Positions 22,890 to 42,458 of a stretch of DNA of 64,000 bases are shown here, in pieces (positions within the stretch are counted from its first letter, which is position 1; each line of letters begins with the position of its first letter). Under the pieces are notes generated by a model that made no database searches, was not told where the DNA came from, and was given only the letters and a program-made list of their open reading frames with translations. The stretch spans positions 3,100,001-3,164,000 of the forward strand of contig NZ_FNTG01000001.1 in the NCBI RefSeq assembly GCF_900104795.1. The letters are read 5' to 3'. Origin of the DNA: Burkholderia sp. WP9. GTDB taxonomy: Bacteria; Pseudomonadota; Gammaproteobacteria; Burkholderiales; Burkholderiaceae. The position numbers were made by a program, and so were the translations under genes.

Positions 22890-23180
<291 letters not shown>

Positions 23181-23250
23181 TTATAGCTTTTTTCAGCCTA
23201 TCGACGGTCGTGCATGATTGCCCAAAATCACGTTTGCGTGTTGCGGCTGA

Positions 23251-23269
23251 GTTGCATAGGTGTTGCAAA
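23251..23269 (+). repeat. 19-bp integrase arm-type repeat, left
   Basis: GTTGCATAGGTGTTGCAAA occurs here and again, identical and in the same orientation, at 42329-42347. This copy is 100 bases inside the left attachment repeat and is followed by an inverted GTGCAAC half-site. The position suits an arm-binding site for the island integrase. Confidence 0.75.
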
Positions 23270-23329
23270 TTGTGCAACGCGCAAAGTCCAGATAGCATGC
23301 CGAGCCATGACCAGCAAGACGTTTAGACA

Positions 23330-23403
23330 CAATTGCGACGTATGCGAGCCGGAGTGCCCGAACGACGCGATTTCGATGGGCCTGGAAATCGACGTGTTCG
23401 ACC
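23330..23403 (+). pseudogene. Inverted ferredoxin-gene fragment
   Basis: The first 53 bases are identical to ferredoxin codons from residue 11 on ([17 protein letters not shown]), in opposite orientation to the intact gene. After that similarity decays (GLEIDVFDL against GPEIYVIDP) and a TAG stop follows at about 23418. The fragment starts with the CAATTG that ends the attachment core, so it looks like a leftover from an earlier insertion, excision or inversion event at the same target gene. It has no second cluster and no convincing start. Confidence 0.85.
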
Positions 23404-23736
23404 TCAACTTTGATGCCTAGGCCAGCATGATATAACCCCATTTATGCTGGGCAATGTTGAGACGACCCCGCAACATAGCGAATTGTCAGTTGACCCGACA
23501 TGTCGTTGTCTTAAAAATACCGAACTCGAGCATCGGCTCGCTCGAATAGCTGAAACTGCGTCACATCTGCCCATCGACTCAAAGCGAGTCTCAAGACAGC
23601 GAGCTTCCGAAAACAAACAACCCCTGTATCATTCGTCTTGGGTTGCGTAGGCATTGCTGTCGGACCTTCCCCGCCCTCAGCTTGACCGATACCGTGCCGA
23701 GACTTTCGCTGAAGATGGATACCCGCCACCGTTGAA
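23404..23736. other. Non-coding left-end island region
   Basis: No credible gene is seen between the ferredoxin fragment and the sce7726-family gene. The stretch is of mixed composition and should hold the promoter of the rightward gene, but I cannot point to clear boxes. Confidence 0.5.
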
Positions 23737-24315
23737 ATGATGAACCTCGACGACAAGACAATCCGCAAGTTTTTGATCGCCAGACTTGCATCGTTATCAA
23801 ACAAACCAAAAGCCGTTATTGAAGAATTGCGTGTGCACAACGGCAATGCAATCGCAGATGTCGTGGCGATTCACAAATACGCCCACTGCTATGAAATAAA
23901 AGGAGACACGGATGCAGTGCGTCGAATCCTCGTCCAGCGCCAATACTACGATCTGGCTTTCCGCCGAATCACGCTAGTGACGACAGATCGCCATCTCGAC
24001 AACGCGTTAAGTCTGGCACCCGCACATTGGGGCATTATGGTCGCGTCTGAATCAAGAGGGAGTGTAGCGATTAGATATGTGCGGAGCGCAACTCGGAATC
24101 CACTGTATGACACGCGCGTCGCATTATTGACTTTGTGGAAATCCGAGCTACTCGAAGTTGCCCTGCCTATCTCGTCCAAAAAACTAGACAAACTCAGCCG
24201 TGCTCAATTGACGGATTTCATTGCTCTCAATGTCGGTCAAGAAATGCTGTGTGAAAAAATCGGCGATCGACTTGTGGGTCGGCGCAGCTACGCCGAAAAG
24301 CTGCTGAACATATAA
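23737..24315 (+). CDS. sce7726 family protein (putative PD-(D/E)xK nuclease-like)
   Basis: This 192-residue protein resembles the sce7726 family. A short helical N-terminus is followed by a core with ADVVAIHKYAHCYEIKGDTDAV, where D and E-x-K (residues about 41-54) have the spacing of a PD-(D/E)xK nuclease active site, then LVQRQYYDLAFRRITLVTTDRHL. The nuclease reading is inference; the family has no established function. It may start at the first or second of two adjacent ATGs (23737/23740), neither with a clear ribosome site. It converges on and overlaps by 28 bases the beta-family gene, its usual genomic companion as I recall. Confidence 0.78.
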   Translation: MMNLDDKTIRKFLIARLASLSNKPKAVIEELRVHNGNAIADVVAIHKYAHCYEIKGDTDAVRRILVQRQYYDLAFRRITLVTTDRHLDNALSLAPAHWGIMVASESRGSVAIRYVRSATRNPLYDTRVALLTLWKSELLEVALPISSKKLDKLSRAQLTDFIALNVGQEMLCEKIGDRLVGRRSYAEKLLNI

Positions 24316-25358
24316 CTCATATGCGCGTTTATCATTGGCTTTAGCACACTAGCTGGTGTCACCATCACCCCTGTCGAAACGGTCCTGTCCCAGATAAATT
24401 TGTCACCGAACGAAAACATCGGCTTCCTATAAAATTTTTTGGTGACAATTTGTGCAAAGATATCGTTGTACTGCAAGTTACCCCGTGGATGGGTTTTTAA
24501 TGCCCCACCACGCGCGACGTAATGTATATCGCCGTGTGAGTAAACTACTTTCGCGGTCATGACGTTATACATAACCTCAGGCGCAAGCTTAACTTCTGAA
24601 TATAGCGGACTAACAATTGTATAGTCACCGCAGAAGAGTTTTGATCCATCCACTTGCTTTCGCAAAGCACGATAAATAGCTATCTCTATGCGAGAATGAT
24701 CGTGCTCAGTCAGCACTCCAGTAACATCGCCAATCGACGGTGGCATTGACGACCCCGTCACAATAATTGCGGAAAATTTTGCCGCAGCAGAGGAATCGTG
24801 AATGAATTTCGCCAATATGCTCGCCCTCTGTAATGGGGCAACATCAGCGCAAAAGCGGTTGTCAAGGACGAGAACCCAGTCCGAGAACAATCCTTTCCCT
24901 CGTTTCAATAATTGATCAATCTCGTCTGCAACCAGCGAGAAATTTTCAAAATCCTCCGATTGTAAACGAAGAGCAATTGTGTTTGTAGCCAATTGCCCCG
25001 TTTCCTTGGCTTTAAATACGGCCTCGTTTCTTCCCGGCGCGCGGTCAAGGCCTACTACGGGCGAAAAATTAATTTTCCCGAATGATTTTATGGCGTAATT
25101 ATAATTGTGTTCGCCATCCACCTTTAGCGAATCATCGATATCGAAGTTGTCGAGAAAAAACATCGGAAACTGCTTGAGATGATTCGCTATGCTCTTCGCA
25201 CCCTTATCGACCAAAGTCTTGAACGCTTCCGGCGTCATTCCATCTTTCTTTGGTAAATCGATAAACGGCACGATAGAAGACTTGATTTTTCCGTCCAAGG
25301 TCGAGAGGGCGCCGATCTCGCCCGTTTTTAGTTTGAGAAACGGAACGTAGTTATTCAT
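24288..25358 (-). CDS. Beta family protein (sce7725/T4-beta-like)
   Basis: A 356-residue protein whose start MNNYVPFLKLKTGEIGALST and following IVPFIDLP segment match the beta-protein family (Pfam Beta_protein), often paired with sce7726 proteins. Biochemical function is unknown; no catalytic motif is obvious. The start ATG at 25358 overlaps the end of the ImmA/IrrE gene by 8 bases (ATGAATAA), with AAGGATCC upstream, indicating coupled translation. Its 3' end overlaps the convergent sce7726 gene by 28 bases. DNA here is clearly more AT-rich than the chromosome. Confidence 0.8.
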   Translation of the reverse strand: MNNYVPFLKLKTGEIGALSTLDGKIKSSIVPFIDLPKKDGMTPEAFKTLVDKGAKSIANHLKQFPMFFLDNFDIDDSLKVDGEHNYNYAIKSFGKINFSPVVGLDRAPGRNEAVFKAKETGQLATNTIALRLQSEDFENFSLVADEIDQLLKRGKGLFSDWVLVLDNRFCADVAPLQRASILAKFIHDSSAAAKFSAIIVTGSSMPPSIGDVTGVLTEHDHSRIEIAIYRALRKQVDGSKLFCGDYTIVSPLYSEVKLAPEVMYNVMTAKVVYSHGDIHYVARGGALKTHPRGNLQYNDIFAQIVTKKFYRKPMFSFGDKFIWDRTVSTGVMVTPASVLKPMINAHMSYMFSSFSA

Positions 25359-26205
25359 GACCGAAAAGGATCCTTCGCACATTCACTTCATTGAGTATTT
25401 TCGCAAACATGTTCTTTTTCGCAGACTCGCGTTGCAAGCGGCCGGCGACAATGGCGGGGTGAACACCCACGCGGCGCGCAAAGTCAAACAAATTCTCTTC
25501 TGTTGGCGAATACTTTACGTTTGCGCTACGCCAAGCGCTGCGACTAATTAGTGAGTCTCCAGCCAGTCGGTCGGCTTGCTCCTCAACTAATCCCTCCGGT
25601 GCGGCATCCAAGTCTTCCAGGATAGGCTCAGTCAGTAACTCCCGGTGGAGCACGATGTGAGCCAACTCATGCATCAATGTAAACCAAAAGATGTCCAATC
25701 GCGGATATCGGAGACTGAGCCCAATAACAGGATGCCCGTCATCCAAACAAAAAACTGCGCCATCGAGCTTCATGCTTGGAATCGACGGTTCGTAGATGAC
25801 GACGATGCCCTTATCCAACAAAAGCTGCTGCAACGAGCTAAGTTTCTCGGGGTCTGCGCTGAGCCGAGCAAAATCGGCTAGGTCATCTACGGACAGGCCG
25901 TCAAACGGCGCGAGTTCTGTCGATGCCGAAAGCAGCTGTGCCTGCTGGCGAATTCTCGAAAGCCAAAGACGACCTAGAGCCTCGTTTGCGTCAAGCCTTC
26001 TACGATATAACGCGCCTTGAGCTGTCCGTGCTGTGTGCACCTCACGAAACAGGTCGTACTCAGCGACACCTGGATTGTTTCCCAAGTATTTTCTCGGCAC
26101 TTGGGCTAGCAGAATCTCAAATTCCAAATAAGATTGGTAGAGATCCTTTGCATCAGCGTTGCCTACCGAGCTGACCGGGAAGTCGTCGAATTGATCTAGC
26201 TTCAC
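25351..26205 (-). CDS. ImmA/IrrE family metallo-endopeptidase
   Basis: A 284-residue protein with the zinc-protease motif HELAH in WFTLMHELAHIVLH (about residues 177-190) and a downstream glutamate region EEQADRLAGD, the hallmarks of ImmA/IrrE (COG2856). Characterised members cleave phage-type repressors (ImmA of ICEBs1) or the DdrO repressor (IrrE). Here the N-terminal 110 residues are helical and show no evident Xre helix-turn-helix, unlike HigA-ImmA fusions, and no partner repressor is seen nearby. It starts with GTG at 26205, overlapping the GNAT stop by four bases, and overlaps the next gene by eight. Confidence 0.88.
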   Translation of the reverse strand: MKLDQFDDFPVSSVGNADAKDLYQSYLEFEILLAQVPRKYLGNNPGVAEYDLFREVHTARTAQGALYRRRLDANEALGRLWLSRIRQQAQLLSASTELAPFDGLSVDDLADFARLSADPEKLSSLQQLLLDKGIVVIYEPSIPSMKLDGAVFCLDDGHPVIGLSLRYPRLDIFWFTLMHELAHIVLHRELLTEPILEDLDAAPEGLVEEQADRLAGDSLISRSAWRSANVKYSPTEENLFDFARRVGVHPAIVAGRLQRESAKKNMFAKILNEVNVRRILFGHE

Positions 26206-26885
26206 CGGCTGGCCTCAAACTCATTTGCTGTCGCCTGCGGCATTTCAAAATACCTCAGGGTTTCCTTGTCCAAAGCGGCAAACGGCTTCATGCCGATCTG
26301 CTCGTAAAACGGTACGGCGCGCGGCAGGGCGTGCAACGAGAAGCCCTGCCGAAGCTTCAGTTCATCGGTGGCGTATGCCATAGCAGCCTTGATTAAAAGA
26401 CTTCCAATCCCGCTGAAACGACGCGACGACATGGGATTCTTACGATTCCAAGGTGCGGAAGCGATGTATTCGATATAGAAGATGTCTCCGGCCGCGAGTT
26501 CACTCTTCTTCGGGTGGTAGATCAGACACGCGCCTTGAGGGACATCGTCCGCCATTAAAAATAGCCAGTCGTACTCGGCCGTTCGGTAAGCTATGGCTTT
26601 TTTCAGCCATTCCCAGTGGCTATCATCGATTTGAATCGACTCCAGTATTTCGGTCCGATCTTCGTCGGAATAGTCCTTTTCCTTAATGAACTTCAAAAGA
26701 TTGAGATTGAAGATACCCCAGTTCTTATCGCACCAGTGTGCCTTGCCCAGATCCCACCCGGCCTGAATCTCGAAAGGGACAAAGGTGCCATCGTTACGCT
26801 GTACCTCGCCTGCTTTCACAACAGTGCATTTGTCGAAAAGCGGGCTTTTGCAGTCCAGAAATGCCTTGATGTCTTCGAGTGTCAT
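26202..26885 (-). CDS. GNAT family N-acetyltransferase
   Basis: A 227-residue protein with a GNAT-like C-terminal half: a FYIEYIASAPWN beta-strand, an acetyl-CoA-binding loop around RRFSGIGSLLIKAAM (variant of R-x-x-G-x-G/A) and the late VPFYEQIGMKPF motif. The N-terminal 90 residues are unique. The target is unknown. It is the first gene of the three-gene leftward operon with ImmA/IrrE and beta proteins (GTGA overlap with the next gene), so it may modify a substrate of the same system. Confidence 0.8.
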   Translation of the reverse strand: MTLEDIKAFLDCKSPLFDKCTVVKAGEVQRNDGTFVPFEIQAGWDLGKAHWCDKNWGIFNLNLLKFIKEKDYSDEDRTEILESIQIDDSHWEWLKKAIAYRTAEYDWLFLMADDVPQGACLIYHPKKSELAAGDIFYIEYIASAPWNRKNPMSSRRFSGIGSLLIKAAMAYATDELKLRQGFSLHALPRAVPFYEQIGMKPFAALDKETLRYFEMPQATANEFEASR

Positions 26886-27463
26886 TGGCTGCGTGCTGTC
26901 TTAATTTAACTGAAGATATACACACTCGCGGAAGATTTGTCCAGCTTGCGACTGGTAGTTGTAAAAAATACCGCCTTATTGGTTCTGGAGCACCTTTCGG
27001 TGCGTGAGAATGGTCGAACGATCCGCCTTGGAGTTGAGGCCTACGTAAAACCGACAAATGCCTGTCGCGTAAAATGCGCGCAGGCTCGCCAGAAGAACCG
27101 CCAAGCGCTCAGCGGCACAGTTTCATAGCAGAGCAAGTTCAAAGCTGGAGAACTTGCCAAAACGCCATTCCGACAAGTTGCGGTTCGAGCGACCGCACCG
27201 AGGCACGGACCTACCCCATCGCAGCAAAACCACGCCCGTGCGCTGCTATTTTGCCCGCAACCGTCGGTGTGACCAACAATTTGCCCTACCCGTTGTCAGA
27301 TGAGCCACCAAGCTTCTGGCGCCATAGCAGCGTTGTGTATAGTGCGTTCAAGCCCTCAATTCTGCAGGCGTAACGAGGGTCACTGGCCTTCTTTTCGTTT
27401 GGACGGCACGGATACCGAGGTGAACGTGCCCACACTTAACAAGGGTATGGGCACGCGGTAATA
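26886..27463. other. Non-coding island region
   Basis: No convincing gene. It holds the promoter area of the leftward GNAT operon at its left edge and one copy of a diverged 140-bp module (27044-27183). Confidence 0.55.
27044..27183 (+). repeat. Diverged 140-bp non-coding module, copy A
   Basis: Collinear with 30236-30372: CGTAAAAT at 27068, CCAAGCGC at about 27100 and the exact TGCCAAAACGCCAT at 27155-27168 recur at the same spacing in the other copy. By eye about 70 percent of the first 65 columns match, less in the middle. The two copies flank the leftward AAA+ operon. Confidence 0.65.
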
Positions 27464-27769
27464 TCAGCAGAACACAAGACGGAAATGCATCGCGTCGGTT
27501 TCATCGACTATCGCGAGCGAAATTTCATAATACGCGTCAATACTGTTCGCTTGATACGTACCATTTCGGCGCGGAACCAAAGTTTGCCTTATCTTTGTGC
27601 AAGGCAGCATCAGACTATCCGTCTGACTGACGCAGTTCGTTGAAAGCCATAGTTTCGCATCACTATAAGCCAGCCATATGTCGATGTAGTCTATTGACCT
27701 GCGCTCAAACTGGAACGCATCATCTTTCAACCCCACGCTTTGCCAATTTAGATTTTTCGGATCGCTCAT
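27464..27769 (-). CDS. Hypothetical protein, last gene of the AAA+ operon
   Basis: A 101-residue protein with no recognised motif; it is mixed alpha/beta in appearance and rich in aromatic residues. It begins 9 bases after the stop of the AAA+ ATPase gene on the same strand, so it is almost certainly co-transcribed. It carries two cysteines and a C-terminal hydrophobic strand (FRLVFC). Function unknown. Confidence 0.6.
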   Translation of the reverse strand: MSDPKNLNWQSVGLKDDAFQFERRSIDYIDIWLAYSDAKLWLSTNCVSQTDSLMLPCTKIRQTLVPRRNGTYQANSIDAYYEISLAIVDETDAMHFRLVFC

Positions 27770-27778
27770 CTGGATTTC

Positions 27779-28411
27779 CTACCGAAGCGAACATTGGGCG
27801 AAAACCTGGCGAATCGAAGCAGCGTTCCCAACGTAGTTTTTCACAATGTCAAGATCGCTTATTGATTGATGACTCACACCGTTTTCTTCAAGCCAAGTGC
27901 GTACAATCGGAACAAACACTGACGGCCCGGAAGTTTCAAAGTTAATGCAATGGCTCCGATTTTTTACCGATGTGTTTACCTTCGAAATATCGTTTGTTGT
28001 CGTAATAAAAACCGCATGCTCGCGCACGATGTCCATTGTGCCTCGCAAGTTGTCCTGAGCAAGGGCTGTCAAGCTTGAGACTTCATCCAAAATAAAATAA
28101 TGCAGACCTCCAAATGATGCTAAAAAAGCAGCGTTACGAACTTGATTTGGAATCGCCCACTGATTGCTTGACGGACTGCAATTATGCACGTGAATAGTGG
28201 GTTTGGCCTTCGAGCGCTTTTCCTCCATCTCCTGAGGCAGAAAAGCGGCACATGTTGACTTTCCTGTCCCAACGTCGCTGTAAAGTATAATTCCGTTGAC
28301 CGTATCAACAGGAAAGCGATCATCCGCATTTATAAGGCTGTAAATTTGTTCCTTTGCTTTCTGGCTGGGGAAAGCGAAGTTCGACAGCGCTTGTGGTTGA
28401 TTGATATTCAT
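27779..28411 (-). CDS. Small AAA+ ATPase (clamp-loader/RuvB-like)
   Basis: A 210-residue AAA+ protein with Walker A SDVGTGKST (residues 45-53), Walker B HYFILDEV (104-111), sensor 1 TTTND (137-141) and a following NRS segment that could give the arginine finger. The order and spacing recall DNA polymerase clamp loaders or RuvB rather than DnaC, but the lid domain is short. ATG 28411 is chosen; the frame is open 34 codons upstream but runs through two inverted repeats. The CGAGAT ribosome-site candidate lies within the palindrome at 28420-28434. It probably loads or remodels a DNA-bound partner; the gene before it is a candidate. Confidence 0.78.
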   Translation of the reverse strand: MNINQPQALSNFAFPSQKAKEQIYSLINADDRFPVDTVNGIILYSDVGTGKSTCAAFLPQEMEEKRSKAKPTIHVHNCSPSSNQWAIPNQVRNAAFLASFGGLHYFILDEVSSLTALAQDNLRGTMDIVREHAVFITTTNDISKVNTSVKNRSHCINFETSGPSVFVPIVRTWLEENGVSHQSISDLDIVKNYVGNAASIRQVFAQCSLR

Positions 28412-28419
28412 TGTGTGAT

Positions 28420-28461
28420 CTCGATTAAATCGAGGTCGTGGAGGGGTATGTCTCCACGACC
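28420..28461. repeat. Palindrome and hairpin in front of the AAA+ gene
   Basis: Two adjacent elements lie between co-oriented genes. CTCGATTAAATCGAG (28420-28434) is a near-perfect palindrome that includes the purine-rich stretch just before the ATPase start. GGTCGTGGAG/CTCCACGACC (28434-28443 and 28452-28461) is a 10-bp perfect stem with an 8-base loop. No T-run follows on the transcribed strand, so it is not a simple terminator. Confidence 0.8.
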
Positions 28462-28466
28462 CTATG

Positions 28467-29234
28467 TTAGTTGGAGGACTTTTCGGGGGCGACGTGAGCG
28501 GCATACGCAGCATCCAGCACGCTTTCGTCTTTCACAAACGCACGAACCTTGAAGCTACCATCCTGGCTAAGGGTGATGATAGCGACAGCAGGTGTATCTT
28601 TCTCGATGCTCGGGTCAACGTATTCCGGCTGAGACTCAACGAAGCCGAGCAGAACATCTTGAAGCTTTTTGCGACCCAGCTTTGCGTTCTGTTTGATATT
28701 CGCAGATGCTGCTTTGCGATTTTCGCGGTTTGTGGCCGTTTCGCACGATTCGAGCGCCTTCACAACGCCTCCTTTTCCGCTGAGCCAGGTTGCGAAATTT
28801 TCCGGCTTGATTTTTTCCCCCGACGCTTTTTCCAAGAGGCGTGCTCGCTGCGACAGTGTCGCAGTCAGCAACTTGCCAAAGGTCAAACCCACGATCATGT
28901 GCTGAGGCTTCGTTTTACCAGTGGTAATCGTCAAATCCGCTTCGATGCACAACGGCTCGAGAATTTTACGGAATTCGACTTCTCGATTAAGGTTACTGAT
29001 ATAAACGTGAAACAGCGCGTATGCATTCGATAGCGACGTATTCAAAACATTGCGATAACCGATCGCCGATTTCTTTACGCCGCTAAGAGCTTTATTGAAT
29101 GATTGCAACACGTGGTCAGCGCGATTTTTGTCGCACTGCCGAGCAACACTCTGATTTTTCTGAAAATCGGGTTTAAAGACTTCCGGCTTGTTGCTGCTCG
29201 TTTCGGAGGTACCGGGAATTACGATTGCGTTCAT
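28467..29234 (-). CDS. Hypothetical protein, AAA+ operon
   Basis: A 255-residue protein, not recognised. It is Lys/Arg- and Ala-rich with a hydrophilic N-terminal 40 residues, a largely helical middle, and an acidic C-terminus. The ATG at 29234 has AAGGG upstream at good spacing; an in-frame ATG 14 codons earlier is less likely. A length near 255 and high basic content would suit a nucleic-acid-binding partner of the downstream ATPase, but this is inference only. Confidence 0.7.
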   Translation of the reverse strand: MNAIVIPGTSETSSNKPEVFKPDFQKNQSVARQCDKNRADHVLQSFNKALSGVKKSAIGYRNVLNTSLSNAYALFHVYISNLNREVEFRKILEPLCIEADLTITTGKTKPQHMIVGLTFGKLLTATLSQRARLLEKASGEKIKPENFATWLSGKGGVVKALESCETATNRENRKAASANIKQNAKLGRKKLQDVLLGFVESQPEYVDPSIEKDTPAVAIITLSQDGSFKVRAFVKDESVLDAAYAAHVAPEKSSN

Positions 29235-29321
29235 ATTGATGCCCTTTGATTTAGAGTTTGTTTGAATGTCGTTCACTGAATCGACAACGAAACTTTAAAT
29301 TCGAGGAGCGCTTGGAGATAG

Positions 29322-29377
29322 ACCGGGTGCTGGCACCCGGTTAACCAAGTACTTGCACTCGGTTAACCGAGTGCAAG
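29322..29377. repeat. Tandem perfect hairpins with repeated GGTTAACC core
   Basis: The first element is ACCGGGTGC (29322-29330), TG, GCACCCGGT (29333-29341). The second, 29352-29377, is a 26-base perfect palindrome centred on GGTTAACC. The half-site GCAC(C/T)CGGTTAACC occurs in both. It lies between two co-oriented genes. No T-run follows on either side, so an operator, a replication/iteron-like site or an mRNA-processing site are all possible. Confidence 0.85.
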
Positions 29378-29384
29378 CAAACAG

Positions 29385-30029
29385 TCATTTTTTGGTGGTT
29401 TTCGACGGTATGAATGTCATTCCGTCCAGCCACTCGGCGATCCTACGCCACGCAGTCTGCTTACCAAAGGTGATGCCGAGCCGCACGGCTTCGGCAATAA
29501 TCTCTTTTTCTAGGGACTGGGCAGCGTTCGTCTTGCTCGGATAGCCGCGCTCACTTGCTAACTCTCTCGCTTTTCGTTTGAGCGGTTCCAACTTAGCAAG
29601 GCGTGCTTGTCCACCGGATGCGCTGCGCGCCGAAATGATCCCGGCAACCGCTGGCTCCAGAACTACGACGCCCTCAACAAAGCCAAGCAGATACTGTGCG
29701 GTACTTATACGGGACCATGCTTCAGCGCTGTTCCCTTCCTCTTCCGCTTTGGTAGCAGCAACGGCATGGGCACAGCTTTGAAATATGCGATCAAACAGCA
29801 GTTTGAATGTTTGGTCGTGATGAGCGCGGGAGGTCGTAACTTCGAGCTTCGCGGGTTGATCTACCGAAGATAGCAGGAGCGGCCCGAGCATCTTTTCGAT
29901 AAAGTCCTCAGCTGCGTTCTGGGGTTGCAACAGAACGTAGATTTTCGCGAGTGCGTTCACGATCTCGTCGAACATCGATTCAATCGAGTTGCAGCCGGTA
30001 ATAGGTTCACCGATCTTTTTTCCTTTCAT
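29385..30029 (-). CDS. Hypothetical protein, first gene of AAA+ operon
   Basis: A 214-residue protein, not recognised. It is strongly helical. The C-terminal 75 residues contain GYPSKTNAAQSLEKEIIAEA and FGKQTAWRRIAEWLDGM, which look like a DNA-binding helix-turn-helix end. GGAAGGAAT immediately precedes the ATG at 30029, a strong ribosome site; the frame stays open 39 codons upstream through a hairpin (30052-30080). A regulator or initiator-like role for the operon is a guess based on position. Confidence 0.72.
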   Translation of the reverse strand: MKGKKIGEPITGCNSIESMFDEIVNALAKIYVLLQPQNAAEDFIEKMLGPLLLSSVDQPAKLEVTTSRAHHDQTFKLLFDRIFQSCAHAVAATKAEEEGNSAEAWSRISTAQYLLGFVEGVVVLEPAVAGIISARSASGGQARLAKLEPLKRKARELASERGYPSKTNAAQSLEKEIIAEAVRLGITFGKQTAWRRIAEWLDGMTFIPSKTTKK

Positions 30030-30526
30030 ATTCCTTCCGAGTTGTCCTTGATCGCTGGTGCGCGCCTCTGTGACCAGCGACGGTATAACGGCGCGCATAT
30101 GGACGATCTGTACAGGATCAGTACATGCCGGGAATGATTTAGCCACGGTTCATCATCTCGCACTAGCCAAGAAACTGCTGAAAGTCCCAGCGCAAACACA
30201 AGCCGAGGACAGCATCCGCGCCAACGCAGCACGTGGGTTAAACGACAACTGCCCCTGACGTAAAATCCCCACAAGCTGGCTAGCAGAGCCACCAAGCGCA
30301 TCGCAAAGCGGATATGAAGTTGGGCATGTCCCAGGCGGCCAACGTGCCAAAACGCCATCCCACAAGCTGCGCGTACTTGAGCGCAAGCGCTTGCCCACAA
30401 GTTAGCCAGTCGCCGTCGACAAATTGTCTTGGGAAGACTACCCGGACGGACTCACTTCGGTCTTTTCTTGATGATCCAGCAACCCCTCGCTACCCTCCTT
30501 ATATCAACAGCATGGCTCGGGGTTAA
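30030..30526. other. Divergent intergenic region
   Basis: Lies between the leftward AAA+ operon and a rightward small gene. It contains a TCGCTGGT/ACCAGCGA inverted repeat (30052-30059 and 30073-30080) about 25 bases upstream of the leftward start, and copy B of the 140-bp module. No gene is seen. Confidence 0.6.
30236..30372 (+). repeat. Diverged 140-bp non-coding module, copy B
   Basis: Partner of 27044-27183. It shares GACAA-C/A-TGCC, CGTAAAAT, CCAAGCGC and TGCCAAAACGCCAT (30345-30358) at nearly identical spacing. Confidence 0.65.
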
Positions 30527-30961
30527 ATGTTCGCGATCACACGCTTTCACAATTTCATGTCGCTTTATCAAGGGCGGTACGCAACCGCTCTTGCAAAATC
30601 GCTCAATACCTCGGTGTTCGCCGCGAAGGCGCTGGACATCGGACTTTCCACTGGCGAAATCTCTCTCGACAAGTTACACCTGCTGCTCGGCTGCAGTCGC
30701 GGTCAGGCAATCGGTGCCGCGTTCGACTTGCAGGAACACGGTCTTGCCGAGGACATCGAGTCTAGGAAGAACCAGCGCGGCGAGTACCTTCTCGTTCCCA
30801 TCGACACGCAATGCGAAGCCGCTCGGCTATATCGAGCAAAATTGGAGCAACGCAGCCGGGATATGGGCCTATACGACATCCTTGAGAAGACATTGCCACC
30901 CTTGCAGGCAATTTTCATGGAAGCGCTTTCTGCAATGGAAGCAAAGCAGATCAAGCGTTGA
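30527..30961 (+). CDS. Hypothetical protein (possible winged-helix)
   Basis: A 144-residue protein with no clear family match. The middle part LDKLHLLLGCSRGQAIGAAFDLQEHGLAEDI followed by a basic loop (SRKNQRGEYLLVPID) is arranged like a winged helix-turn-helix with its wing, so a DNA-binding role is plausible. CGGGG precedes the ATG at 30527; an in-frame ATG at 30557 lacks a ribosome site. It is divergent from the AAA+ operon and could be its regulator. Confidence 0.6.
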   Translation: MFAITRFHNFMSLYQGRYATALAKSLNTSVFAAKALDIGLSTGEISLDKLHLLLGCSRGQAIGAAFDLQEHGLAEDIESRKNQRGEYLLVPIDTQCEAARLYRAKLEQRSRDMGLYDILEKTLPPLQAIFMEALSAMEAKQIKR

Positions 30962-31062
30962 AGGATGCGCCCCTTACTCGGACGCATGTTCTGTCCTGCT
31001 CTCGACCGGTACCGAGAATCCGTCGCGACTAAACTTCCCCTTACCATCCAAGCCCTTCCACG

Positions 31063-31092
31063 GCAGCCGCCGTTCCTCGTAACGGCGGCTGC
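31063..31092. repeat. Perfect 12-bp inverted repeat
   Basis: GCAGCCGCCGTT (31063-31074) and AACGGCGGCTGC (31081-31092) enclose a 6-base loop, in the gap after the 30527-30961 gene. No T-run follows; it could be a structured 3' end or a binding site. Confidence 0.7.
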
Positions 31093-31226
31093 GCGCCACG
31101 CCAACGTCGAAAAAATTTGCGCCTCCCCTAAAGTTCGTTCTGCCGGCGCCGACATCCAAGTGTCAGCTTCACGATGTACGCCGAGCCTTGCGTGCTTTTG
31201 TCCAAACCGATATAGTTTTTATAACG

Positions 31227-31787
31227 ATGAACCTGAGAGAAAACATAAAAACGGAACGCGTCGTACGGACCGATCGGTTAGACATGCCTCTGCAACCGGT
31301 CGGTCGGGTTCCTAGTCTATGGCTCGCGTACTATCCGGTCTTTCAAGATGCACTCCAACACGGCGAGACAACGTTCCGGATGCTGCCCCAACAAGCCAAG
31401 CTTGCAGTAGTGAGCCGAACAACCACCGATGCTGCAGAGCAAATTATTGCGTCAGGAATTTTGGATGGGGTTCGCGGATCTTTTATCGAACTTAGTACGC
31501 AGTGCGTCGTAGAAGCGGCGGAGGCTTTCCTTTCTACACGGGTGACGAACTCAAAATTAGATACGGCCCGCAACCCCATATTGCTTAGCAACCTCGCAAT
31601 ATCGATTTCATCTGCGAGCTATCCCCTGATTGCAAGGCCACCTTGCGTGCTTCGTCCCGGAGTCGGGATTTTTCTCAATGGCTGGAGCCGCTTCTTCGGC
31701 TATTTGACACGTGGCGACGGGACCATTCCGCTTCTTGCAATTGACTGGGCCGATTTCTACGAACGCCTCGTAACCACAGATTGTTGA
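31227..31787 (+). CDS. Hypothetical island protein
   Basis: A 186-residue protein, not recognised. It has mixed hydrophobic segments, including LLSNLAISISSASYPLIA, but no clear membrane span or signal peptide. The frame opens at 31188 (GTG-type region) but MNLRENIKTERVV at 31227 is the first ATG. The ribosome site is weak. Composition is island-like. Function unknown. Confidence 0.55.
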   Translation: MNLRENIKTERVVRTDRLDMPLQPVGRVPSLWLAYYPVFQDALQHGETTFRMLPQQAKLAVVSRTTTDAAEQIIASGILDGVRGSFIELSTQCVVEAAEAFLSTRVTNSKLDTARNPILLSNLAISISSASYPLIARPPCVLRPGVGIFLNGWSRFFGYLTRGDGTIPLLAIDWADFYERLVTTDC

Positions 31788-31866
31788 TCACGAGTTTTTC
31801 ACTCTGCTATGTCGCTAACGCCAACCGTCACTTTATACGGACGGCTACTCATTAGATTGAGGCTAA

Positions 31867-32331
31867 ATGAAACGCAAATCTTTTTTCACTACGGCGATCT
31901 GCATGAGTATCGCTTTGGCTGGATGTAATAGAGCCACATCCAACGCCGCGCAAGCAAGCCAAACCGATACTGCACCACAACAACTCTCGATAGTTGACGT
32001 CGCAGAGGATGCGGCAGAGCACTATTGTGGGTATAGCATCGCTAATCGAGTCAGCGACAACGATATACGTGAGCCCATGCGAAAGACGGCAGAGGAGAAG
32101 TTGAGAGCAGTTCGGAGCACCATTGCGGCGAATGGCTACTCCTCAAAAGTGGCTTCAGTGACTACTATGATCGGAGACGACGCGACCCGAGCGGTGTTCG
32201 ACAATGAGGCAAATCTGGCGACTGCTCCCAGCAAACCACCGAACGAAAGAGCCAAGTTCCTTGTCGAGCTTTGTTCAAGACAGATTCGATCCAACAATAA
32301 GTACGTGAACCTTATTAACACGAATCTTTAA
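31867..32331 (+). CDS. Putative lipoprotein
   Basis: A 154-residue protein with a lipoprotein signal peptide: basic MKRKS, a hydrophobic core, and lipobox LAGC with cysteine at residue 20. The rest is hydrophilic, with two more cysteines (HYCGYS and ELCSRQ) that may form a disulphide. It is followed 141 bases later by another exported protein, so the two may act together in the envelope. Family not recognised. Confidence 0.72.
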   Translation: MKRKSFFTTAICMSIALAGCNRATSNAAQASQTDTAPQQLSIVDVAEDAAEHYCGYSIANRVSDNDIREPMRKTAEEKLRAVRSTIAANGYSSKVASVTTMIGDDATRAVFDNEANLATAPSKPPNERAKFLVELCSRQIRSNNKYVNLINTNL

Positions 32332-32472
32332 TTGATCTCGATCCTACTCAAGCAACACCAGGCCATGCGAAAACATCTAGAAATAACAACGGGATATCCG
32401 CATAGGCCGATTGCATAACAGCTCGGGCAAACGGTCTCATCAAAAATTTAAACGACATAAAGGCGGATAACT

Positions 32473-33501
32473 GTGATAAAAAAAGCAGCACTTGTAGTAG
32501 CTATGCTGGCCTCGGCGACCTCTGTCAATACGTACGCTGCGGTTGAAAATGAAGTACCCGTGCGGTATGACGTCTTAGTGACCGCGCGCCTATCATGTCA
32601 GAAGAGTGTTCTTGACGCCTCTCCGGGCAAGAAAGACGAAGTGACTGATCTACTCGTTGGAACCTCGCAAGCAAGTCTCGCCAAACGCATTGGTCAACAA
32701 GCAGCGTCTTACGCCGTGCGACTTGGAAGCTCGAAAAGGGATCTTGTGCTGCGGGATCAAACTGTGATGCATCCTCAACCCGGCAAGGACTTTAGCGATG
32801 ACGTTGTCGCGCCGGTTTGCTCTCGATATATTTCTAGCGATGCCGATTTCAACAAGCGTTACCCAGATGTATCCTCCGCGACGCAGCCTGCCGGACAGAC
32901 AGCGACGAAAATCTCTGGGGGAACCGTCGGTCCGTGCGCTACGAACGTAGAATGCGTCAAGACTATGCTTGTGTCCGCAAAAGCAGAGGACATGACAAGC
33001 GTGCTAGAAGCTGCGAAGACGATTGACGGTTTCCCAAGACCGACGCGAGGTAATCGGCCAACTGCGCGTAAGCTCAACGAAGAAGGTCTGAATGCTCTAG
33101 ATGCGTCCAAGCCTGACGAGGCCATACGACTGTTCTCGCAGGCAACCCAAGCCGACCCGAGCGATCAGGAGATCATCAGCAATCTGGCATATGCTTACGC
33201 GCAATCCGGGCAACTCGCAAAGTCGGAAGACACTGCTGTTTTGGCACTTTCACTGAATCCCCGTCGCACAAGCGTTTGGGCACCGTTAGCGACTACGCTT
33301 GCCAAGGAGCATCGCTACGACCAGGCACTGGAAGCTATGTGGCTTGCATATCAGTTTTCGGGCGACAAGGCGAAGACGCTGATTTTCATCGACTCGAAAC
33401 TTGCATCCGAGAGCAATCCGGACGCAATAAAGCTGTATACCGCAAGCAAGACATGGTTTGAGAAAAACGAAAAACCTGCGTTACTGCAGTGGCCGAAATA
33501 G
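32473..33501 (+). CDS. Exported tetratricopeptide-repeat protein
   Basis: A 342-residue protein with a signal peptide (MIKKAALVVAMLASATSV, cleavage near TYAAVENE) and at least two TPR units in the C-terminal half (ARKLNEEGLNALDASKPDEA; IISNLAYAYAQSGQLAKSED). The start is GTG at 32473 with AAAGGCGG upstream. It is probably periplasmic, adjacent to the lipoprotein gene. The N-terminal domain is not recognised. A double hairpin terminator follows. Confidence 0.75.
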   Translation: MIKKAALVVAMLASATSVNTYAAVENEVPVRYDVLVTARLSCQKSVLDASPGKKDEVTDLLVGTSQASLAKRIGQQAASYAVRLGSSKRDLVLRDQTVMHPQPGKDFSDDVVAPVCSRYISSDADFNKRYPDVSSATQPAGQTATKISGGTVGPCATNVECVKTMLVSAKAEDMTSVLEAAKTIDGFPRPTRGNRPTARKLNEEGLNALDASKPDEAIRLFSQATQADPSDQEIISNLAYAYAQSGQLAKSEDTAVLALSLNPRRTSVWAPLATTLAKEHRYDQALEAMWLAYQFSGDKAKTLIFIDSKLASESNPDAIKLYTASKTWFEKNEKPALLQWPK

Positions 33502-33510
33502 GTTTGCGAA

Positions 33511-33570
33511 CGTCGGGTGATCAGAGAGAAAGTTGAATCACCCGACGAGGGCGAGCGATCGCTCGCTTTT
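33511..33570. terminator. Double-hairpin terminator
   Basis: The stem CGTCGGGTGAT (33511-33521)/ATCACCCGACG (33537-33547) is followed by the palindrome GCGAGCGATCGCTCGC (33551-33566) and TTTT. It ends the TPR gene; a convergent membrane-protein gene lies beyond. Confidence 0.8.
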
Positions 33571-33643
33571 CCACACTGTAAAGCTGTAAAGCTCAATGCT
33601 CTGCGATTGTTCACGTGCCAATAGTGCCTAACGGAAATTCTCC

Positions 33644-34198
33644 TCAGGCGTCGGCACGCCGCTTTGTCGGCAACAAAGCCAAAGCTCCCTTCATCGCATA
33701 CAGGATGATCAATGCGCCGGCCAAATCGCCTACGAACATTGCGAAAAACCGGTTCACGATATTCTGAGTATCGCCCTGCAAGAAGAACCAGATATGATGC
33801 AACACAGGATTCGCAATCGAATACGCAAGCGCTAGGACGAGAAGTCGCTTCGCGGTGAGATTAGTTAAAGACGCACGTAACTTGTAGCGCTCCAGCGCCA
33901 ACCTGTACACCGCGTATGGCGCAACGGTCGCGATAATCCCACCGGCAAACGAGCGAATCGGATCGTGGGGAAAGAAGTAGAAGAAGTCAACGAGCCAACT
34001 GGCAACAAGTAGACCGATTGCACCGTCCCCACCTAACAGCAACGTACTAAGAAGACGGATACCCGAAGGCAGGTAAATCCAGTTCACGCCGCGCACGAAT
34101 TCGGTATGCGTGAATACTTCCTGATTGATCCACAACGACACGATGAAAACGACTGCGGTGCCGATCACCGACAGGAAATGCAAACGTAAGCTAGACAT
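33644..34198 (-). CDS. Multispan membrane protein (MASE1-like)
   Basis: A 184-residue integral membrane protein with about five or six hydrophobic segments. The stretch GVNWIYLPSGIRLLSTLLLGGDGAIGL resembles membrane sensor domains of the MASE1 type, without any attached signalling output domain. Function unknown. It is divergent from the MarR-like gene at 34290, with 91 bases between, and the two may be a regulated pair. Confidence 0.65.
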   Translation of the reverse strand: MSSLRLHFLSVIGTAVVFIVSLWINQEVFTHTEFVRGVNWIYLPSGIRLLSTLLLGGDGAIGLLVASWLVDFFYFFPHDPIRSFAGGIIATVAPYAVYRLALERYKLRASLTNLTAKRLLVLALAYSIANPVLHHIWFFLQGDTQNIVNRFFAMFVGDLAGALIILYAMKGALALLPTKRRADA

Positions 34199-34289
34199 CG
34201 CGGTAAAATTTCTGTATGTGCCGTGAGGTGAGCAACATGATAGCTCATCGAAATGTTCGATCCGGTTCCCCGCATATGGAGCACGAGGA

Positions 34290-34637
34290 ATGACTCGCCC
34301 TGCCGATATCTATCTCCGGTTTCTTCAACTGACCGAAGCAATACGCGGCCTGCCTTCACTGCCCGCGCTCGATCCGCTCGAGGAGCGGATTCTTGCATTT
34401 GTTGCCCGCATGGCACAGAAGAATGAGCGACTCTCTGTCCGGGACATGATGGCCCAAAGCGAACTAGGCTCACCCGCCACCCTTCATGCTCGCATCACGT
34501 CCATGCGGGAAAAGGGCTGGCTGCTGCTCAACGACACAGAGGACGCGCGACGCAAACAGATTGAGCTTACGCCCGCGGCCCTCCGGCACTTCGACAAGCT
34601 TGCCGAAGCCTTCGCGAAGGCGGCGAAGGGAACCTAA
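34290..34637 (+). CDS. MarR-like winged-helix regulator
   Basis: A 115-residue protein arranged like a MarR winged helix: helices LDPLEERILAFVARMAQKNE, recognition region SELGSPATLHARITSMREKG, and wing WLLLNDTEDARRKQIELTPA. It likely binds DNA as a dimer; the nearest candidate target is the shared promoter with the membrane-protein gene. A compact inverted repeat (TGTCGGTT-C-AACCGACA, 34649-34665) lies just after its stop. Confidence 0.7.
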   Translation: MTRPADIYLRFLQLTEAIRGLPSLPALDPLEERILAFVARMAQKNERLSVRDMMAQSELGSPATLHARITSMREKGWLLLNDTEDARRKQIELTPAALRHFDKLAEAFAKAAKGT

Positions 34638-34725
34638 CAATTTCCGGCTGTCGGTTCAACCGACACTATAATGTTAGAAGGGGCTGCGCATACCTATCGC
34701 ACCCAAGATGCTATCAGCGTCGTGA

Positions 34726-34956
34726 TTACAACCGCGCACGCCCGTCGGTATATTCGATGGTTTGCGGGAGCTGAAGCGCAGTAATAGTGGCGATTTCGGT
34801 TTTGCTGAACCAGATGATGAACAGCCTAGGATCTGCGAGGCTGCGTTGCACCTTGACCTTCTTCCCCGCCTTATGCGTTCGACCGACGTTGAAGCCAATG
34901 TACTTGCTCTCAATCGCGACAAGCAGCTTAGCAGCGCGGGGGAGTTCATAGCTCAT
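34726..34956 (-). CDS. Small hypothetical protein
   Basis: A 76-residue basic protein (AGKKVKVQRSLADPRLFIIWF) with no recognised family. ATG at 34956 is chosen; there is no strong ribosome site. Codon use looks chromosomal rather than random, and similar small genes occur beside regulators in Burkholderia islands (recollection, not checked). Confidence 0.45.
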   Translation of the reverse strand: MSYELPRAAKLLVAIESKYIGFNVGRTHKAGKKVKVQRSLADPRLFIIWFSKTEIATITALQLPQTIEYTDGRARL

Positions 34957-35185
34957 GGGAGTTTTCTCGCTTGCTGCTGCGCGCACACCTCTCGCACGCA
35001 AGGACAGCGCATCGGATTAGGTAGCTGCATATTATTATAATTTTTATAACATTCCAGCCAGGCAAGTCAATTCGTTAGCTGTATCTCCCCTGTTTATCAG
35101 CGGCCACGCATTGCTTTGGCGCAACTCGTGTTTCTGGTGCACTCACAGCATGGTCAAATCGAACTATTGGCCTATCTGAGGATTT

Positions 35186-35752
35186 TCATACGAGATCCAC
35201 AGCGGCGCGCTGCATTTCGTCGTTGACGTCGATGTAAGCCTGTGTCGTCGCGATATTCCGATGACCCGCAAGCGACATCAGCACGCGGACACCAACGCCT
35301 TTGTTCGCGAGATTCGTAATGAACGTACGTCTGCCTGAATGGCTGCTCGCGCCATCAATGCCGACTTGCTTGTACAGCCAGTGGAAGTACTGGCACAACG
35401 TGTTCGCTGTGAACCCGGCCCGCTTCTGTGTATAAAACAGCGGCTTCTCTGCTGACGGACGCTTGAGGGTTGCGACGTACGAAGCCAGTTCTTTGCGAAG
35501 CCGTTGGCCGATAAACACTGTTCGCGCATGACGCCCCTTGGTCTGTTCCGCCAGCAAGCGGATCTCCGATTTAATCGAGCCGTCCGCGTTCACCACGTCG
35601 CCGATACGCAAAGCTGCGACCTCGCCCACACGCATGCCAGCCCAATGCGTCGTCAGCAGCATGGTCCGGTTGCGCGCTGCGTGACGATGCAGTGACACGT
35701 AGGTCAGCACCTGCCTGAGCTCTTTTTCGGTCAACGTCTTTGCCTGCGCCAT
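35186..35752 (-). CDS. Small tyrosine recombinase (catalytic domain only)
   Basis: A 188-residue phage-integrase-family protein with all catalytic residues visible: Arg in GMRVGEVAALR, His-x-x-Arg in SSHSGRRTF, His in LAGHRN and the Tyr nucleophile in TTQAYIDV. It lacks the usual N-terminal SAM-like core-binding domain. GGGAG precedes ATG 35752. It is oriented like the terminal integrase but 6 kb inside the island, so it may belong to a nested element or act in DNA inversion; no matching repeats were found by eye. Confidence 0.85.
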   Translation of the reverse strand: MAQAKTLTEKELRQVLTYVSLHRHAARNRTMLLTTHWAGMRVGEVAALRIGDVVNADGSIKSEIRLLAEQTKGRHARTVFIGQRLRKELASYVATLKRPSAEKPLFYTQKRAGFTANTLCQYFHWLYKQVGIDGASSHSGRRTFITNLANKGVGVRVLMSLAGHRNIATTQAYIDVNDEMQRAAVDLV

Positions 35753-36292
35753 GTGCCCAACTCCCGTAACCAATGAATTTCATACATCGGAGGATGTGTT
35801 CTTTGGTTATGGAAATCAACAATTACGTGACTTGCCTGCGCAGTCATAAAAAACAAGCACTTGCGCGAGAAGCAAAGCTTTTTGCTATTTGCTTTGATTT
35901 TCAGGGGAGCGGCTACTTGAAAGAGGAAATGCGTTGAGAAATGAACCGACGCATGCAGTTGCAACGGACATTTGCTCTCCATGCTGGCGGTCCGGTTGCA
36001 CCGCAGTGAGCAGCGGCCGTCCAGCAGACGTTGAACTAAGTCAACTGCCCTTGTCGGAAAAACTTGGAGCACGCAACGGAACGCGCGGATCGGGGATGCA
36101 GCGTCCGGTTCGGCAGAAATCGGGCCAGCTTCAGTCATTGGACATTCGCAGATGAATCGTTGACAATCCTCGGCTATCCGGATGCGTTCGACGCAGCCCA
36201 ACGAATCACGGTGCGATTGATTTATCAAATTTTTAACACCTATCGTGGGTTAATTTCGATGTTTTGAGACGTAAATTATTTACGGCGTATTA
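35753..36292. other. Non-coding island region
   Basis: No supported gene. Open frames here lack ribosome sites and protein-like composition. The last 60 bases are AT-rich and should carry the potassium-channel promoter. Confidence 0.5.
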
Positions 36293-39277: not shown

Positions 39278-39343
39278 GATTCGTGTATCTTATTGTATTT
39301 CATACATCCAGATTAAGACAGAATACAAGAAGATACACGATTC
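39278..39343. repeat. 22-bp imperfect inverted repeat
   Basis: Arms 39278-39299 and 39322-39343 (GATTCGTGTATCTT... and ...AAGATACACGATTC) match at about 21 of 22 positions across a 22-base AT-rich spacer. It lies in the gap before the right-end gene group. Confidence 0.8.
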
Positions 39344-39478
39344 CGTGATGGGGGCTCCGGACATGCAGACTGCCGATTATAAATAGAATTTAAGAGCAAT
39401 GCATGACGCAACCGGCAATGTTCCCCGACAAGCTAAATTTAAATATTCGCAGCGATTCTCTGCGAACATGTGAAGGCG

Positions 39479-39512
39479 AGGCGGATTAAGTGGTTGCGCA
39501 CTTAATCCGCCT
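39479..39512 (+). repeat. Perfect 14-bp stem-loop upstream of 39535 gene
   Basis: AGGCGGATTAAGTG (39479-39492) and CACTTAATCCGCCT (39499-39512) enclose a 6-base loop, followed by TTCGTCTTTCT. It ends 22 bases before the next ATG, so it may be a terminator for upstream transcription or a regulatory leader hairpin. Confidence 0.85.
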
Positions 39513-40519: not shown

Positions 40520-40522
40520 TAC

Positions 40523-41327: not shown

Positions 41328-42314
41328 TCAGCCGAGCTTTTGAGCTAGCTCCCTTGCAGACACATGGTAATAGCGCTTTAACATTTGCACATTGGAATGC
41401 CCGGTTACGGATGCGAGTTCGATAACGTTCGGCAGCCTCTTCGCTAGGTTCGTTGTTGCCATATGCCGCAGATCGTGGAAATGAAAGTCTTCGATACCGG
41501 CGCGTCTGCAGGCTCGCGGCCATGCACACAAAACGACGTTCTGACTGATGGGGATAACACGCTCCTCAACACGCTCAAGGCGGTCCAAAATTGCGATCGC
41601 AGCAGTACTCAACGGCACGTGCCGGTCCTTTCCGTTCTTTGTCATAGGCAGATATGCAATTCGGTCCTCAAGGTCAACGTGCTTCCACAGCAGAGACAAC
41701 AATTCCCCCTGACGCATCGCGGTTTCGAGCGCGAGTTTAATTAGTGGTACCAACCATTTGCTGCGCAAATCGTGCCGTTCAGCATTTAGTTCATGCATCA
41801 GGCGATCGATCTCAGTTGGTTTCAATATGCGGCTTCTACCGGGCGGCAATCGCGGTCTTTTCACAAGCTTTGCCGGATTGGTCATACTGAGGCCCCATTC
41901 ACGTTGCGCGTGCGTGATAACAGCGCTAATCGTTGCAAGCTCTCGACATACGCTCGAATTCGATGCGCCCTTTAGACGCTGATCTCGATAGTCAGCAAGC
42001 ACGCTGGTCGTGAGGTTGCGCATACTGTACTCAGCGATTTTCTGCCGCATCATTTTGCCGATACGATATTCCTCGCTGCGGCGACTGTGCTTTGACGGCG
42101 TAACCGACTCTCTATATCGCTCTAACAGTTTGCCGAACGTTATGTCGGTTGTGCTGGCCGGATCGACCCACGTTCCGTCATCCATTGCAGTTTCGACAGA
42201 ACGTGCCCAAACTTGCCCTTCCGCTTTCGTTGCAAACGATTTGTACTGGGTAGGAAATCCCTTACGGACTACCTTCACTTGCCAACGGCCATTGCGTTGA
42301 CTGAATGTGGCCAT
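41328..42314 (-). CDS. Island tyrosine integrase
   Basis: A 328-residue phage-type integrase. The N-terminal part MATFSQRNGRWQVKVVRKGF resembles an arm-binding domain, followed by a SAM-like core-binding domain and a catalytic domain with Arg in ETAMRQGELLSL, His-x-x-Arg in HDLRHMATT, His in VTGHSN and Tyr in KRYYHVS. CGGGAG precedes ATG 42314. It is adjacent to the right attachment repeat; a 19-bp arm-like repeat lies 15 bases upstream of the start and may also tie expression to integrase binding. It most likely catalyses island integration into the ferredoxin gene. Confidence 0.94.
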   Translation of the reverse strand: MATFSQRNGRWQVKVVRKGFPTQYKSFATKAEGQVWARSVETAMDDGTWVDPASTTDITFGKLLERYRESVTPSKHSRRSEEYRIGKMMRQKIAEYSMRNLTTSVLADYRDQRLKGASNSSVCRELATISAVITHAQREWGLSMTNPAKLVKRPRLPPGRSRILKPTEIDRLMHELNAERHDLRSKWLVPLIKLALETAMRQGELLSLLWKHVDLEDRIAYLPMTKNGKDRHVPLSTAAIAILDRLERVEERVIPISQNVVLCAWPRACRRAGIEDFHFHDLRHMATTNLAKRLPNVIELASVTGHSNVQMLKRYYHVSARELAQKLG

Positions 42315-42328
42315 GTTTTGCTCCCGAT

Positions 42329-42347
42329 GTTGCATAGGTGTTGCAAA
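42329..42347 (+). repeat. 19-bp integrase arm-type repeat, right
   Basis: Identical to 23251-23269 (GTTGCATAGGTGTTGCAAA). It lies 73 bases inside the right attachment repeat, immediately upstream of the integrase gene. Confidence 0.75.
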
Positions 42348-42420
42348 ACATGATTTCGGCGCAATCGAAAATGCTGGCAAGCCTTGAGCTACGGTCAATT
42401 GATAATATGACCCTAATTTT

Positions 42421-42458
42421 CAATTGATGCACTCGTCGGTAATCATCAAGGCCATACT
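42421..42458 (+). repeat. Island attachment repeat, right end (38 bp)
   Basis: Exact copy of 23113-23150. The DNA to its right (GAGAGAAG on the minus strand just before a would-be ATG) is the original leader of the ferredoxin gene, now cut off from it. Confidence 0.95.

Follow-up and report, generated by a model that had tools for sequence, protein, structure and literature searches.

A GNAT-ImmA-beta-sce7726 cassette conserved in distant bacteria: a putative branch of the PD-lambda-2/gop-beta-cII defence family in Burkholderia sp. WP9

Four closely packed genes of Burkholderia sp. WP9, encoding a GNAT-type N-acetyltransferase, an ImmA/IrrE metallopeptidase, a beta family protein and a convergent sce7726 family protein, raise the question of whether they act as one system, and of which kind. 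They lie within the window analysed here, a stretch of 64,000 nucleotides (contig NZ_FNTG01000001.1, positions 3,100,001 to 3,164,000), and an earlier note made from its letters had proposed them as an undescribed, self-contained conflict or defence cassette. Our analysis suggests one mobile, tightly coupled, toxin-antitoxin-like defence cassette that represents a GNAT branch of the PD-lambda-2/gop-beta-cII family, a reading that we regard as somewhat probable.

All four open reading frames (ORFs) were found at the places and on the strands previously assigned to them. On the minus strand, the GNAT gene (26202..26885; 227 aa; PF13673) occupies the ‘A’ slot of PD-lambda-2 and is followed by the gene for the ImmA/IrrE (M78) metallopeptidase (25351..26205; 284 aa from a GTG start; PD-lambda-2 B-like) and by beta (24288..25358), whose product resembles both PD-lambda-2 C and P4 beta and is predicted to form a TIM barrel. 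Running towards them on the plus strand, the sce7726 gene (23737..24315; 192 aa), a homologue of P4 cII, encodes a predicted PD-(D/E)XK-like nuclease. Overlaps of 4, 8 and 28 bases had been described, and the sequence bears them out: GNAT and ImmA share 26202-26205, beta and sce7726 share 24288..24315 at their 3’ ends, and ImmA and beta overlap by 8 bases when the ATG at 25358 is taken as the beta start, or by 32 with the longest-ORF start at 25382. We favour 25358, because the betas of two related loci (L028 and L128) start at the equivalent position, likewise overlapping ImmA by 8 bases, and because residues 1-8 are the sole segment of the beta model with a predicted local distance difference test score (pLDDT) below 50.

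The genes keep company well beyond this strain. Among 398 genomes of the phylum, beta was present in 13 and sce7726 in 14 (5 further matches fell below the cut-off); 11 genomes carried both, always adjacent and convergent, against an expectation of 0.46 (hypergeometric p 3e-17; without the window genome, 10 observed against 0.39 expected, p 8e-16). In a larger set that was not neighbour-blind, 33 of 56 beta ORFs had a convergent sce7726 gene and none a same-strand one, the 3’ ends overlapping in 30 of the 33 pairs, and an ImmA gene lay upstream of 45 of the 56. Among these 56 are 5 fragments and two pairs of near-identical loci (L012/L015 and L011/L026); the loci set aside, L001-L010 and all of L107-L120 but L111, are L003 and shortened copies of others; the ImmA-alignment contig scan covered the best 80 of at least 91 relatives, and counts from it are not frequencies.

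The complete cassette, its gene order unchanged, was recovered at nine distinct loci. Four lie beyond viral contigs, namely in the window, in a lichen metagenome-assembled genome (MAG) of the PVC group (L027), in Pseudomonas sp. AKS31 (L028) and in another member of the window’s phylum (L128); five, recovered with subtype alignments, lie on contigs of a viral collection (L201, which shares its contig with L206, and L203, L204, L205 and L207). Two further contigs, L200 and L202, end within or beside the pair. A convergent, overlapping sce7726 gene was present in 9/9 cassettes, four of which (L201, L203, L204 and L205) had been retrieved with a sce7726 query, the others coming from ImmA (L027 and L028), beta (L128) and GNAT (L207) queries. 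Given pairwise identities of only 26-72% for GNAT, 29-67% for ImmA, 27-67% for beta and 32-69% for sce7726, the four-gene set is not recent. The cassette is conserved, recurs in distant bacteria and is not strain-specific; the earlier note had named absence of co-occurrence beyond this strain as one outcome that would speak against a system, and the search returned these nine loci instead.

Queried singly, GNAT had relatives in 3/398 genomes at E ≤ 1e-10 and in 3/266 at E ≤ 1e-15 (profile searches, own genome counted), ImmA matched in 8/98 relatives, the window’s own genome among the 8, and a search of 98 genomes with the window beta, again counting its own, returned the query gene and a single marginal match (E 7.8e-4). 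Scans of the viral collection with the window beta or GNAT as a single protein found no relative. Portions of the cassette also occur apart: GNAT and a PD-lambda-2 B-kind M78 gene directly downstream of it stand at L211 with no beta or sce7726 within 10.3 kb, and the near-identical L012 and L015 carry beta and sce7726 without ImmA, so that an organisation in two separable pairs would fit.

With respect to the individual proteins, the GNAT match to PF13673 just exceeds the Pfam cut-off (E 2.4e-5; 24.7 bits against 23.6). No PADLOC profile matched the window GNAT at E ≤ 1, and comparison with solved structures by sequence (E ≤ 0.1) gave one weak match, 1q2y (E 0.065). The nine-way cassette alignment revealed H90, W91 and W93 (an HWxW motif) and Y194 to be invariant. 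GNAT acetyltransferases carry the acetyl-CoA motif R/QxxGxG/A; the motif is present in the window, and xxGxG is kept in 7/9 cassettes overall and is degenerate in L027 and L204, whose GNATs may for this reason have lost acetyl transfer.

GNAT genes without beta in the stretch read were seen at L169, L211 and L212 and in two hand-picked plasmid loci, L019 and L025, the two read among 46 plasmid records with a GNAT match; an M78-like gene adjoins or is near GNAT in all five. We considered L019 and L025 as instances of the window’s set and rejected this, as their M78-like protein is by eye of another type. Rather, L019, L025, L169 and L212 display a second set, GNAT - helix-turn-helix (HTH) - M78-like, with the HTH gene between GNAT and the other M78 kind in the first three (by eye) and L212 judged by N-terminal similarity of its M78-like gene only. 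A small ribbon-helix-helix-like gene lies just upstream in L019 and L025, as in GNAT toxin-antitoxin pairs (by eye), and the set stands beside a multiubiquitin/ThiF set in L019 and beside Cas9 in L025. It may be another toxin-antitoxin-like system.

ImmA belongs to Peptidase_M78 (PF06114, E 1.9e-12), in keeping with the HELAH metallopeptidase described before: the motif spans residues 179-183, and H179, E180, H183 and E208 are invariant in all nine cassettes, in which the ORF measures 284-294 codons. The PADLOC profile PD-Lambda-2_B matched at E 3.8e-52, covering only model positions 197-396 of 402, the C-terminal half, and RmrA matched at E 4.1e-8. Pfam detected no HTH in the window ImmA at E ≤ 1, nor in the other GNAT-type ImmA proteins scanned (4/4 in all, the window included; L028 from residue 22 of its longest ORF). 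That ImmA has no visible partner repressor, as the earlier note had it, holds as a by-eye reading, made with no profile scan, of the ORFs of at least 70 aa from GNAT to 27464, among which none was recognised.

Beta matched Beta_protein (PF14350, E 6.5e-44) and the PADLOC profile PD-Lambda-2_C (E 1.1e-39), and PADLOC’s own beta model only at E 0.0076, while its partner matched sce7726_fam (NF033832, E 7.9e-40) and PADLOC cll (E 1.3e-14). Neither protein matched a solved structure by sequence at E ≤ 0.1. Structure prediction, which the earlier note had advocated, was carried out on the single proteins and returned a predicted TIM barrel, a (beta/alpha)8 fold, for beta. For sce7726 it gave a confident PD-(D/E)XK-like model, in line with the families of the structure entries that it matched. 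The nuclease-like D...ExK pattern suspected before corresponds to D41, E53 and K55, which, together with Q67, are invariant in 14 aligned homologues and likewise in all nine cassettes, and the model and this D, E-x-K set together predict a PD-(D/E)XK-like nuclease.

Within the 398 genomes, sce7726 occurred three times over the cut-off without beta, each time with an adjoining sce7725-like gene, an assignment based on NCBIfam for L149 and on 61-63% identity for the other two. At L149, L151 and L152 the order is sce7726 followed by the sce7725-like gene on the same strand. We tried sce7725 as a distant beta and rejected it, the match between the profiles not being significant (probability 3.4%, E 0.013 over 32 columns), though it may be a distant barrel. 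Both sce7726 and sce7725 occur as annotated names (PMC12457778), and a comparison of proteomes reported a correlation of sce7725 with resistance to aminoglycosides (PMC8203672).

Which known systems does the cassette resemble? PD-lambda-2 is reported to consist of a HigB-like A, an Xre-peptidase B and a C related to a P4 antitoxin, and to act by abortive infection against lambda: B is toxic, A rescues, and C is needed for defence and not for neutralisation (PMC9519451). The window shares the order A - ImmA (B) - beta (C), the B and C profile matches given above and a PF14350 beta in the C position. However, its A is a GNAT and not HigB-like, its ImmA comprises the peptidase half only, as opposed to the Xre HTH fused to ImmA/IrrE of PD-lambda-2 B, and a convergent sce7726 gene accompanies all nine GNAT cassettes (the sce7726-query share noted above included) versus 3/9 HigB-type loci.

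The second relative, gop-beta-cII, reportedly protects against lambda and P1, with Gop toxic in the absence of beta (PMC9122126). The P4 record has the three genes side by side, the last of them convergent and assigned to sce7726 both by its annotation and by NCBIfam scoring; given this layout and scoring, we equate PADLOC’s ‘cll’ with the cII of gop-beta-cII. P4 and the window have in common a PF14350 beta and a convergent sce7726/cII gene. They differ in that the window has GNAT and ImmA and, by family assignment with no Gop profile run, no Gop-like membrane protein, and in the 28-base beta/sce7726 overlap against a 27-base gap in P4. P4 Gop itself, judged by its sequence, is small, contains two hydrophobic segments and ends in a coiled-coil-like tail. 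The set as a whole can therefore not be called undescribed, as the earlier note had proposed, since ImmA and beta match PD-Lambda-2_B and _C, and beta and sce7726 are the P4 beta/cII pair.

Loci with a DUF6932 first gene (by Pfam in L011 and L013, by our own profile elsewhere) share the ImmA-beta core and a convergent, overlapping sce7726 gene in 14/14 full-length cases; their first gene sets them apart, as does the HTH that the ImmA of L011 carries. The first genes of L011 and L013 match the PADLOC candidate PDC-M63A (E 7.1e-9 and 2.2e-6); for a PDC-M63AB pair, a possible relative of these loci, no defence was detected in one E. coli host (PMC12409345). RosmerTA (RmrT/RmrA) likewise combines an ImmA-domain protein with varied partners, and RmrA matches the window ImmA; PD-Lambda-2_B fits far better, no HTH was found, and the accessible part of PMC10440598 makes no mention of beta or sce7726. 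A literature search yielded no paper that links PD-lambda-2 to gop-beta-cII via sce7726 or treats the GNAT set; preprints and most subscription papers lay outside it, which makes it weak evidence of absence.

Comparison of the loci revealed what precedes beta to be exchangeable. Five types were distinguished, in which beta is preceded by a HigB-like protein and HTH-ImmA, by DUF6932 and HTH-ImmA, by GNAT and HTH-less ImmA, by a membrane/coiled-coil protein and a small ImmA (by eye), or by Gop alone. The HigB and membrane-type labels were assigned by eye; Pfam HigB_toxin was matched by six HigB-type proteins (4/6 over the cut-off) and PADLOC PD-Lambda-2_A by 5/5 HigB-type relatives. A convergent sce7726 gene accompanied 31/50 full-length betas: 4/4 of GNAT type, 14/14 of DUF6932 type, 3/9 of HigB type, 4/7 of membrane type and 6/16 others. 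In the 50-row beta tree (without L015, L021, L046, L076, L137 and L138), the 4 GNAT rows fall on one side of a branch with support 100/100 and the 14 DUF6932 rows on one side of another (95/88), while P4 beta stands among the membrane-type rows. The 31-row sce7726 tree likewise sets the 4 GNAT rows apart (100/100), and its long-branch warnings concern none of them; L201, L203, L204, L205 and L207 are absent from both trees.

Two further arrangements were noted around beta. At L024 (2862-7630), an XRE/ImmA gene and beta have no sce7726, an opposite-strand UvrD-helicase/AAA pair taking its usual place, and at L136 (4996-8563), beta is a tandem pair with a small ImmA gene before each copy (one by profile, the other by eye).

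We hold it probable, a shade more firmly than the reading of the cassette itself, that the beta TIM barrel and the sce7726/cII nuclease form the common core of one defence family that unites PD-lambda-2 and gop-beta-cII and takes up at least five exchangeable toxin modules (Gop, membrane/coiled-coil plus ImmA, HigB plus HTH-ImmA, DUF6932 plus HTH-ImmA, and GNAT plus ImmA), the GNAT module being a new branch whose protease would work without a DNA-binding domain. This would link two anti-phage systems reported separately through their shared barrel and nuclease, and provide a set of natural variants that differ chiefly in the effector slot. It makes testable whether beta and sce7726 sense the phage while the swapped module sets how the cell stops, and suggests that many such systems include the convergent sce7726 gene, which is readily overlooked on the other strand.

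The cassette also has a mobile location, as had been surmised. Between ~23 and 43 kb of the window, G+C drops from ~0.6 to ~0.5. An exact 38-bp direct repeat, attL-like at 23113..23150 over the start of a ferredoxin gene and attR-like at 42421..42458 beside coaD (spacing 19308), flanks this region, and an integrase gene (41328..42398, minus strand; phrog_1 integrase, E 4.1e-60) lies beside the right repeat. Ferredoxin and coaD are neighbours in 20 of 23 same-genus relatives, with 67-179 bases between their aligned ends, while coaD did not turn up in the stretch retrieved for the remaining 3; each of the 23 retains the 38-bp site, matching it at 35-38 of its 38 positions. The repeats, the integrase and the uninterrupted ferredoxin/coaD junction in relatives identify the cassette as cargo at the left edge of a 19.3-kb integrative element (23113-42458).

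Elsewhere, the cassette stands among prophage-like genes: a phage integrase, a repressor and a CII-like gene at L203, a repressor-like and a CII-like gene at L205, and a CI-like repressor, a CII-like gene and a replication gene at L207. Genes expressed in lysogeny are commonly located in the repressor/CII region of phages, and the upstream repressor-like genes may mean that the cassette is expressed together with them in lysogeny or that the two are linked in regulation. Scans for promoters and terminators found no more than they did in shuffled sequences.

How might the parts work together? Gene set and order, the single clade, the family relationships, the intact peptidase and nuclease motifs and the mobile location are supported directly; toxin-antitoxin logic and abortive infection are suggested by the kinship with PD-lambda-2 and gop-beta-cII. 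GNAT and ImmA would form a toxin-antitoxin pair in which GNAT, perhaps by acetylating a translation component, is the likelier toxin and ImmA the neutraliser or a protease switch. GNAT and HigB are known toxin folds, and other GNAT toxins acetylate translation components; that the slot holds such folds is why we prefer GNAT as the toxin. The beta barrel and the sce7726 nuclease would be a second pair, which detects infection, or else licenses and executes the response; this assignment is suggested by the constancy of beta across the loci studied, the frequent partnership of sce7726, and the need for PD-lambda-2 C in defence and not in neutralisation. Phage infection would release the first pair, so that growth stops before the phage matures.

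Several points weigh against this picture. L027 and L204 have a degenerate acetyl-CoA motif, the window GNAT matches Pfam weakly, that of L027 has no Pfam match at E ≤ 0.5, and the ImmA of L128 falls just below the Pfam cut-off. Fold matches show no function. L027, as a MAG, could be misbinned; beta often stands without sce7726 (with it in the 31/50 and, for HigB type, 3/9 given above); and a repressor-like gene lies upstream on the strand of GNAT in 4/9 cassettes (L027, L203, L205 and L207). We know of no GNAT-type cassette that has been tested against phages or for toxicity, nor did the literature search yield one. The toxic member of PD-lambda-2 is B, rescued by A, the reverse of the roles we prefer (PMC9519451).

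This last precedent opens the alternative that the cassette is the same and the roles are reversed, with the ImmA protease toxic and GNAT neutralising it, for instance by acetylating it, and with beta and sce7726 needed for defence. Besides the published toxicity of PD-lambda-2 B alone, its rescue by A and the requirement for C (PMC9519451), it draws on the window ImmA, which best matches that very B and whose HExxH and downstream E are kept in 9/9 cassettes. Yet ImmA is described as a hub antitoxin in a network study that includes RosmerTA-type defence (PMC10440598), so that the precedents conflict on the toxic partner, and on the protease activation suggested in the earlier note: a RosmerTA-type ImmA neutralises, and PD-lambda-2 B kills. 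It would be surprising for an acetylating neutraliser to carry the degenerate motif of L027 and L204, and no less so for a toxin. The GNAT fold being a known toxin, and L019 and L025 having their ribbon-helix-helix-like gene upstream (by eye), also count against the exchange, and we judge it unlikely, if the strongest of the alternatives.

Less plausible still is that the genes serve upkeep of the element instead of defence, as an addiction module or an integration/lysogeny switch, with ImmA an anti-repressor protease like ICEBs1 ImmA. The att-like repeats around the cassette would suit such a role, as would the upstream repressor-like genes of L027 (XRE), L203 (one gene between), L205 and L207; cleavage of an HTH repressor by ImmA has been described (PMC10440598). 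Conversely, by-eye reading of the region upstream revealed no repressor-like gene in the window, L028 or L128 (the L201 contig breaks off at that point, and L204 lay outside the scan), those on phages may be the prophages’ own, and PD-lambda-2 and gop-beta-cII, which share the core genes, have both been tested for anti-phage activity and are reported to resist phage (PMC9519451, PMC9122126). That GNAT or sce7726 are chance neighbours of an ImmA/beta pair, which the breadth of the single families and the weak GNAT match might invite, is contradicted by the same gene order in nine distinct loci at GNAT identities of 26-72%, by the GNAT-type clades in two trees and by the 11 joint genomes against 0.46 expected, and is most improbable.

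The element holds other genes and traces. Inward of the left repeat, at ~23338-23420 on the plus strand and thus opposite in strand, a ferredoxin-like fragment ends in a stop (by eye), perhaps the remnant of an earlier integration. An AAA protein near phage clamp-loader families is encoded at 27779-28513 (minus strand; phrog_168, E 1.1e-19). A second, shorter phage-integrase-family gene lies at 35186-35773 (minus strand; PF00589, E 1e-26), and a predicted ion-channel protein is encoded at 36293-36877 (plus strand; PF07885, E 1.4e-12).

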